Made by a program: the position numbers and the translations under genes
Notes under the pieces: generated by a model
What the model saw: only the letters and a program-made list of their open reading frames with translations
What the model was told of the DNA's origin: nothing
Databases searched by the model: none
Shown: positions 10,933-15,121 of the stretch, piece after piece
Numbering within the stretch: position 1 is the first letter of the stretch
How the letters are laid out: every line of letters begins with the position of its first letter
Source of the DNA: Hahellaceae bacterium
Lineage (GTDB): Bacteria > Pseudomonadota > Gammaproteobacteria > Pseudomonadales > Oleiphilaceae
Assembly (NCBI GenBank): GCA_016744695.1
Contig: JADGDV010000013.1
Span: 25,223-89,222, forward strand
DNA length: 64,000 nucleotides
Direction of reading: 5' to 3'

Positions 10933-11092
10933 AACAATTCCACGTTTTATCGAACCACCAATTGCACCAAAATGGCTCGATTATTATTTCTATTTTCTGG
11001 TACTCTTTCACTATCTGCCGTAAAGAGCAAAATGCTTTAGTCATATAATAACAACAACCCTTTCACTGAATAGTATAGGAGTTTTACCCTCT

Positions 11093-12370
11093 ATGAAACT
11101 AGAAACACTGGCTATCCATGCAGGTTATACCCCAGACCCAACCACCAAAGCTGTTGCCGTCCCTTTATTTCAAACAACCTCTTATGCTTTTGACAACACC
11201 CAGCATGGCGCAGACCTGTTTGACTTAAAAGTTCCGGGTAATATTTACAGTCGCATAATGAACCCAACTAATGACGTTCTCGAACAACGACTAACACAGA
11301 TGGAAGGTGGTATTGGAGCCTTGTCGATGGCATCGGGTATGGCGGCAATCACCGCGTCTATTCAGGCTATTTGTGAGGTAGGCGAAAACATTATTAGTGT
11401 TAGCCAACTCTACGGCGGCACATACAACTTATTTGCCCACACGTTCCCTAAGCAAGGGATTGAGGTTCGATTTGCAGACGGTGATAACCCTGCTTCTTTC
11501 GCGAGTTTAATTGATTCAAAAACAAAAGCTATTTTTTGCGAATCTATTGGTAACCCTTTAGGTAATATTATTGATATCAAGGCACTTGCAGATGTTGCGC
11601 ATCAGCATGGTGTACCTCTGATTGTAGATAATACCGTTGCCACTCCGGTTCTTTGCAGACCCTTTGAGCACGGTGCAGATATTATTGTTCACTCATTAAC
11701 AAAATACATCGGCGGACACGGAACGACTATTGGCGGTATTATTGTTGATTCAGGTAAGTTCCCTTGGGCTGAGCATAAAGAACGCTTTGCTGTGATGAAT
11801 GAACCGGATCCTTCTTATCATGGAGTAGTCTATTCAGAAGCGCTTGGAGACGCAGCCTACATTGGTCGCTGTCGTGTTGTTCCACTAAGAAACATGGGAG
11901 CGGCACTCTCGCCATTCAATGCAATGATGATAATGCAAGGCCTCGAAACACTTTCGCTGCGTATGGAACGACATTGCGAGAACGCTCAAAAGGTGGCTGA
12001 GTTCTTAAACCAAAGAGAAGAAGTTGAATGGGTTAACTATGCAGGGCTCGAAAGTAGTAAATACCATAAACTAGCAAAAGACTACATGAACGGGACACCA
12101 TCAAGCATTCTTTCTTTTGGCATTAAAGGCGGAGTTGCAGCAGGCTCTAAATTTATTGATGCGCTAGAATTAGTCGTTAGATTGGTAAATATTGGCGATG
12201 CAAAATCACTAGCCTGTCACCCCGCATCAACCACTCACAGACAGTTAAATGAAGAAGAGTTAAAAAGTGCTGGAGTTTCTACCGATATGGTAAGGCTTTC
12301 GGTTGGTATAGAGCATGTAGACGATATTCTTGAGGATATTACTCAGTCTTTAGAAGCTTCTCAGAGGTAA
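11093..12370 (+). CDS. metY: O-acetylhomoserine (or O-succinylhomoserine) sulfhydrylase, Cys/Met PLP family
   Basis: This is a PLP enzyme of the Cys/Met metabolism family that makes homocysteine from acylhomoserine and sulfide. Evidence: start KLETLAIHAGYTPDPTTKAVAVPLFQTTSY, substrate loop NIYSRIMNPTNDVLEQRL, SGMAAITAS, and the PLP lysine at about residue 204 in HSLTKYIGGHG. The 425-residue length and the long insert after WAEHKERF match the O-acetylhomoserine aminocarboxypropyltransferase branch. A TATAAT lies at 11044-11049 upstream, with AGGAG before the ATG. I found no clear MetJ box or SAM riboswitch. Downstream is a compound inverted repeat. Confidence 0.93.
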   Translation: MKLETLAIHAGYTPDPTTKAVAVPLFQTTSYAFDNTQHGADLFDLKVPGNIYSRIMNPTNDVLEQRLTQMEGGIGALSMASGMAAITASIQAICEVGENIISVSQLYGGTYNLFAHTFPKQGIEVRFADGDNPASFASLIDSKTKAIFCESIGNPLGNIIDIKALADVAHQHGVPLIVDNTVATPVLCRPFEHGADIIVHSLTKYIGGHGTTIGGIIVDSGKFPWAEHKERFAVMNEPDPSYHGVVYSEALGDAAYIGRCRVVPLRNMGAALSPFNAMMIMQGLETLSLRMERHCENAQKVAEFLNQREEVEWVNYAGLESSKYHKLAKDYMNGTPSSILSFGIKGGVAAGSKFIDALELVVRLVNIGDAKSLACHPASTTHRQLNEEELKSAGVSTDMVRLSVGIEHVDDILEDITQSLEASQR

Positions 12371-12380
12371 AATACCAAAA

Positions 12381-12472
12381 TGGCACACTCAAGTAGGGTG
12401 TGCCATGCGCGCCGTTTTTATAATTGGGCACGGGCATTTTAAACATCTTTCGGTGCGCATGGCGCACCCTAC
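12381..12472. repeat. compound inverted repeat between convergent metY and hemE (REP/MITE-like)
   Basis: Two 21-base arms, 12393-12413 (GTAGGGTGTGCCATGCGCGCC) and 12452-12472, are reverse complements at 19 of 21 positions and are separated by 38 bases. The left arm also contains GTGTGCCA (12398-12405), which pairs perfectly with TGGCACAC at 12381-12388, giving an alternative short hairpin. The arms resemble abundant GTAGGGTGCGCCATGCGCACC-type intergenic repeats that I recall from proteobacterial genomes. As RNA it could end or protect both metY and hemE transcripts; it stops 8 bases short of the hemE stop codon. Confidence 0.75.
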
Positions 12473-12479
12473 ATATTAT

Positions 12480-13544
12480 TTACTGGTGGTACTTCGCACT
12501 AAACTCATGTACAGCTTCAACAAATACCTTAGCCCGCTCTGGGTCAACAAATTGATGAATTCCATGCCCAAGGTTAAATACGTGCCCAGGGTTCGATCCA
12601 TAAGCCTTTAAAATACTTTCTACTTCTTTTCTAATGGTCGCAGGTGAAGCATAAAGCACACTTGGATCCATATTACCTTGCAGAGCAACTCTATCACCCA
12701 CCTGACTTCTTGCGTGCCCAATTTCCGTCGTCCAATCCAGACCTAGCGCATCTACACCGGTATTAGCCATCTGCTGTAACCACTGACCACCACCCTTTGT
12801 AAACATAATAACAGGCACTTTTCGTCCGTCATGCTCACGTATTAAACCATCTACAATTTTCTGCATATACTGCAATGAAAACGTTTGGTAAGCCGCATGA
12901 CTTAAATTACCACCCCATGTATCAAAAATCTGAACAGCCTGAGCCCCTGCTTTAATTTGCTCATTCAAGTAGTCAATAACAGACAACGCTAGTTTATCCA
13001 ACAACTTATGCATTACTTCAGGCTTGTCATACATCATCGCCTTAACGTGTCTAAAGTCTTTAGACGAGCCACCTTCAACCATATACGTTGCTAGCGTCCA
13101 AGGACTGCCAGAAAAACCAATTAAAGGCACACGACCATTTAGCTCACGACGTATTGTAGTCACCGCATTTAAAACATAATCTAAATCAGAGCTTGTTTTA
13201 ACCACAGGTAACGCATCAACATCAGCCTCTGTGCGAACAATCTTTTTAAAACGTGGACCTTCACCCGTTTCGAAGTAAAGCCCCAAACCCATTGCGTCTG
13301 GAATAGTCAGAATATCAGAGAATAAAATTGCCGCATCTAAAGGGAAACGTTCAAGAGGTTGAATAGTTACTTCACATGCAAACTCTGCATTCTTGCATAA
13401 GCTTAAAAAATCACCTGCCTTGCTACGTAACGCTCTATATTCAGGCAAATACCGACCAGCCTGACGCATCATCCATACAGGCGTTACATCCACAGGCTCT
13501 CTTAATAATGCTCTTAGAAAGCGATCATTTTTTAGTTCAGCCAT
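12480..13544 (-). CDS. hemE: uroporphyrinogen decarboxylase
   Basis: HemE removes four carboxyls from uroporphyrinogen III to give coproporphyrinogen III in haem synthesis. Diagnostic sequences are [16 protein letters not shown] (substrate-binding Arg), [41 protein letters not shown] and FNLGHGI near the C-terminus. It is 354 residues, as expected. The gene is downstream of gltBD but separated from it by a clear intrinsic terminator. hemB lies elsewhere in the window (44.7-45.7 kb). Confidence 0.97.
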
Positions 13545-13633
13545 GCAATTTCTCTCTATAAAAATTATTAAAGGCTGGATAATACCCGCCTTTAAAGTGA
13601 ATTCGGTTGTTAAATGTCAATAATTAGCAAGAT

Positions 13634-13664
13634 AGAAAAAAGCACAGCGATTGCTGTGCCTTTC
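13634..13664 (-). terminator. intrinsic terminator after gltD
   Basis: On the minus strand GCACAGC-aatc-GCTGTGC is followed at once by TTTTTTC. It sits about 40 bases beyond the gltD stop and separates gltBD from hemE. Confidence 0.88.
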
Positions 13665-13699
13665 TTCTATCTAAAAACATGTAACTTTTCAGTTTTTAT

Positions 13700-15121
<1,422 letters not shown>

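Follow-up and report, generated by a model that had tools for sequence, protein, structure and literature searches.

The convergent genes metY and hemE are separated by a conspicuous inverted repeat, and the question raised by this locus is whether that repeat is a regulatory switch, an ordinary terminator or a member of a mobile repeat family, and what it does to the two messages. The window (the whole stretch of 64,000 nucleotides that was analyzed) carries the gene for O-acetylhomoserine aminocarboxypropyltransferase (metY, 11093..12370, + strand; family model match of 812 bits) upstream of the repeat and, convergent with it, the gene for uroporphyrinogen decarboxylase (hemE, 12480..13544, - strand; HemE family model, 457 bits). 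An inverted-repeat search in the space between the metY stop codon (12368-12370, +) and the 3' end of hemE (12480, -) returned two arms of 22 nt (12393-12414 and 12451-12472), complementary at 20 of 22 positions (91%) and spaced by 36 nt, which start 22 nt past the metY stop and end 7 nt short of the hemE stop. The compound inverted repeat described by the first-pass annotation, with 21-base arms 38 apart and close to both stop codons, is therefore real, and the recomputed arms simply add one base pair to it. The left arm was also said to pair perfectly with a segment just past metY, and this holds: a third arm (ATGGCACAC, 12380-12388) is 100% complementary over 9 nt to GTGTGCCAT (12398-12406) within the left arm. 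The 109-nt plus-strand RNA of the element folds at -49.1 kcal/mol (z = -7.05 against shuffled sequences), and the short hairpin formed by the third arm (12380-12406) at -18.5 kcal/mol (z = -3.2).

Each long arm taken alone is a full REP hairpin, composed of a GTAG tag and the palindrome GGTGYGC-CRT-GCGCRCC. Unit 1 (12393..12413, + strand) carries the palindrome GGTGTGC-CAT-GCGCGCC with two G-T pairs (-10.7 kcal/mol, with two G-U pairs in the RNA), and unit 2 (12452..12472, - strand) the perfect palindrome GGTGCGC-CAT-GCGCACC (-13.0 kcal/mol). Both are thus imperfect palindromes in the 20-40 bp range that leave GTAG unpaired on one side, as is characteristic of GTAG REPs, and they face each other with the tags outward, forming a head-head dimer of the BIME/REPIN type. 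Read on the minus strand, the spacer between them (12414..12451, 38 nt) opens with GAAAGATGTTTAAA, a start similar to that of several other copies in the genome. These features agree with those that define the GTAG REP super-family (Di Nocera et al., 2013; PMC3733652), which shares the GTAG tag, the 7-bp GC stem and the 3-nt loop. Searches of literature text, which do not cover consensus tables set in figures, did not return GTAGGGTGYGC-CRT-GCGCRCC as an exact consensus. Related units were described in Haemophilus influenzae and H. parasuis (GTAGGGTGGGCTT(c/t)AGCCCACC and GTAGGGTGGGTCTTGACCCACC; Nunvar et al., 2010, PMC2817692), which have the tag, a GGTG...CACC outer stem and an association with RAYT proteins, but differ in the inner stem (GGC/GCC or GGT/ACC there, YGC/GCR here) and in the loop. 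It is close to certain that the metY-hemE element is a GTAG REP dimer and, as such, the dimer itself is an ordinary scattered bacterial repeat of an already known class and not a new type of switch.

The genome to which the window belongs (a draft of 4.07 Mb in 77 contigs) contains 108 matches to the REP pattern at no more than 3 mismatches, antisense readings of palindromes included, and none to the reversed control pattern, which bears out the proposed resemblance to widespread GTAGGGTGCGCC-type repeats. Within the window the 21-mer arm matches at this threshold only twice, both times in the metY-hemE element (0.00 expected in shuffles). Reading of 64 surrounding stretches yielded 103 de-duplicated REP units, arranged as 34 head-head pairs with the GTAG ends outside (two of them collapsed palindromes), 3 pairs of other layout and 29 singles, with pair spacers of 12 to 46 nt; several of the singles are perfect palindromes tagged at either end, which is what the collapse of a REP pair would leave. 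Nearly all copies examined lie at the 3' ends of genes, at a median distance of 12 bp from the stop codon or gene 3' end compared with 46 bp from a gene start. According to simple, ORF-based gene calls, the 61 intergenic sites that were classified are convergent in 21 cases, co-oriented in 39 and divergent in one; two further sites overlap an ORF and two lie at contig edges. High copy number, extragenic placement in convergent or co-oriented spaces and pairing in opposite orientation are all traits of GTAG REPs, and the preference of these copies for 3' ends, the predominance of head-head dimers, the spacer range and the convergent or unidirectional intergenic sites match the published pattern (PMC3733652). 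Five copies share flanks outside the dimer (GAATGCAGACAAGTAACATCTT...ATCGCATTCAACAAGAAGGATCAGACTCAATATAGCC, whole or in part), so that the dimer sits there inside a larger repeat, and contigs C34 and C47 terminate within this larger repeat. Gene ends in the genus, in this genome as well as at congener loci, also bear recurring copies of a second short inverted repeat (ATTCCCGC-CTTC-GCGGGAAT type).

REPs of this kind are associated with RAYT transposases, and the first-pass annotation had suggested a search for further arm copies together with such a gene. As to the copies the expectation stood, about 100 being found rather than none. The RAYT guess was right for the repeat class, since RAYTs flanked by it occur in relatives, but no such gene was found in the genome itself. 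All six Y1_Tnp matches in the draft lack these REPs at their flanks, which rules them out as REP-adjoining RAYTs, and queries with two REP-flanked RAYTs returned distant paralogues only. A near-identical pair of RAYT-like genes (MPRKLRMYLAGMPYHVIQRGNNREACFF...; G000:C76:136948-137280 and G000:C49:2785-3117) is present without REP flanks, one of the two being shorter, near a contig end and diverged at its C-terminus. In a relative from the same family (G014), a RAYT protein (NF047646, 188 bits against a cut-off of 80) has GTAG REPs of the GTAGGGTGYGC type on both sides, and the exact GTAGGGTGCGCCGTGCGCACC unit flanks RAYTs in species such as Pseudomonas kuykendallii and Microbulbifer litoralis. 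The RAYT of the congener G001 adjoins an array of ATAG-tagged REPs with a period of 169 bp (C1, around 912629-914452); this genome has 167 strict REP matches, those among the matches listed all being tagged ATAG, and the congener G003 has no strict match. The G001 REPs listed carry ATAG and mostly a 2-nt loop, those of the window genome mostly GTAG and a 3-nt loop, a change of tag within the genus. The arrangement in G014 and G001 parallels the RAYT/TnpA-REP REPtrons of E. coli, S. maltophilia and Marinomonas sp. MWYL1 (PMC8266576), with the differences that no such gene was found in the window genome and that the congener REPs are tagged ATAG instead of GTAG. Since RAYTs are flanked by this class in relatives, the repeat is, to judge from sequence, a RAYT-type REP. 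A cognate RAYT may possibly be hidden in an assembly gap, given that the assembly is a draft and that two contigs end inside REP dimers.

The third arm raises the possibility of a three-arm RNA switch, in which the 12380-12406 hairpin would mask the terminator-like hairpin of unit 1 and its TTTTT run until displaced by the 22-bp stem, the kinetics setting the ratio of 3' ends. The first-pass annotation had proposed a terminator/attenuator or stability switch of mutually exclusive hairpins, and their order can indeed be computed on the metY strand: in growing transcripts the short hairpin is the minimum-energy fold at 12406-12425 (-17.7 to -18.5), and the long 22-bp stem replaces it once the transcript reaches 12472 (-47.8). 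On the minus strand the long stem comes first, with the short hairpin followed by TTTTGGTATTTT. These are minimum-energy folds, which are not kinetics. For any single copy, shuffling puts the chance of an exact 9-nt match upstream at about 0.0004, but over all copies 3.5% of shuffled sets would contain one. Of 97 REP copies only that of metY-hemE has the third arm, the other long upstream matches being tail-tail REP pairs. The arm was thus rejected as a recurrent family feature. It is also absent from the orthologous sites of the congeners, and the alternative pairing is therefore not conserved among homologues, as it would be in an attenuator or riboswitch. Moreover, the third arm lies past both stop codons, which leaves no coding gene downstream to attenuate. 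Because the arm is confined to one copy of 97 and is lacking in congeners, regulation by hairpin switching is unsupported, and such a switch is very improbable.

The terminator-like traits of the element were considered next to those of its family. In the interval 12200-12700 the sole terminator-like match on the + strand is REP unit 1 followed by GTTTTT (the T run at 12415..12419, preceded by G; sequence 3' of the unit, GTTTTTATAA), a GC hairpin with a direct T-run as in intrinsic terminators; the minus strand gave none under the same definition. In metY transcripts this terminator-like hairpin (-10.7) would be hidden by the short hairpin upstream of it (-18.5). A scan of 11000-14000 against Rfam gave no plausible family, only two snoRNA matches far below the gathering score. 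The convergent location, the hairpin and the GTTTTT would suit an ordinary bidirectional intrinsic terminator that resembles a repeat by chance, but the 21-mer is present about 100 times in the genome, a GTAG tag is needless for a terminator, and most copies do not have a T-tract: at least 4 T follow the hairpin in 27 of 97 copies, compared with 3-5 in upstream controls. This reading is contradicted by the copy number and scarcely conceivable. T-runs are not in excess on the transcribed side (15 of 62 sense units, 12 of 29 antisense units; Fisher P 0.14), and T-tracts were rejected as a selected terminator feature; the lack of a difference between sense and antisense units gives no sign of family-wide selection for terminator function.

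The orthologous site in congeners provides a direct comparison. The two genes are convergent, as here, in G001, G003 and G004 (protein identities 86-92%), and the intergenic space of these three contains AAAAAAGGCGGCC...GGCCGCCTTTTT or a close variant, in which an A-run, a hairpin and a T-run form a two-way intrinsic terminator (fold z -4.5 to -5.7). A similar terminator lies past hemE in G002, in which no adjacent metY was found. In the window genome this terminator is missing, and the metY-hemE space is occupied by the REP dimer instead. As the congener site is a terminator and not a clean empty site, for which the relatives are too distant, insertion of the dimer looks the same as its replacement of the terminator by recombination, and either the loss of the terminator or the gain of the repeat may have come first. 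Seven more convergent sites were examined for the replacement of terminators by REPs, with mixed results. The scan finds terminators in the congeners G002 and G003 at the serB site, which holds a REP in the window genome; the congener sequences at pyrE, inspected visually, contain inverted repeats of other kinds; and at waaA an ATAG-REP occupies the matching position in three of four congeners. No clear picture of replacement emerged at rlmI, hemX, folA and rsmJ. The pyrE, serB and waaA junctions suggest an exchange like that at metY-hemE. At the waaA 3' end the outer ends read GTAG...CTAC in the window genome and ATAG...CTAT in G001, G002 and G004, both ends changing together.

We favor an explanation in which the head-head GTAG REP pair is a non-autonomous mobile repeat that a RAYT-type HUH/Y1 transposase would spread in trans by recognizing the single-stranded GTAG hairpin. 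The dimer would now hold the metY-hemE intergenic space instead of the two-way intrinsic terminator of the congeners; its RNA is predicted to form strong stem-loops at the 3' ends of both messages, where these probably end or trim the transcripts and shield them from 3' exonucleases. Sitting where close relatives have a normal terminator, the dimer probably shapes the 3' ends of the metY and hemE messages; it is likely a stable 3'-end element and possibly a terminating one. A related system is that of the BIMEs of E. coli, inverted REP pairs past stop codons that were reported to assist Rho-dependent termination at operon ends (PMC2817692); their stem sequence differs from that of the metY-hemE dimer. 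A REP dimer with no effect on the messages, a pure genomic parasite that landed or persists in the only space tolerated between convergent genes, would have the same identity; it and the favored explanation differ in function only. The T-tracts, not enriched on the sense side, would fit such a parasite, and REPs in general typically lie at 3' ends, which may mean tolerance only. Against it, the dimer fold is very stable and, with the congener terminator missing, the two genes must either rely on some other 3'-end structure or tolerate readthrough. We regard the inert parasite as unlikely, though a serious contender, and the favored explanation as a whole, from spread by RAYT to replacement of the terminator and an effect on both 3' ends, as reasonably probable.

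One convergent junction thus occurs in two states, with a classic two-way terminator in three congeners and with a REP dimer in the window genome. This comparison gives the old question of whether REPs act as 3'-end elements a single defined locus at which it can be tested. A bolder proposal, which we consider doubtful, is that across the genus REP dimers serve as portable replacement terminators at convergent ends and that the arm captured at metY-hemE tunes termination by three-way competition. If this were true, hairpin repeats of several kinds, with terminators and REPs among them, would be exchanged between species at shared 3' ends.
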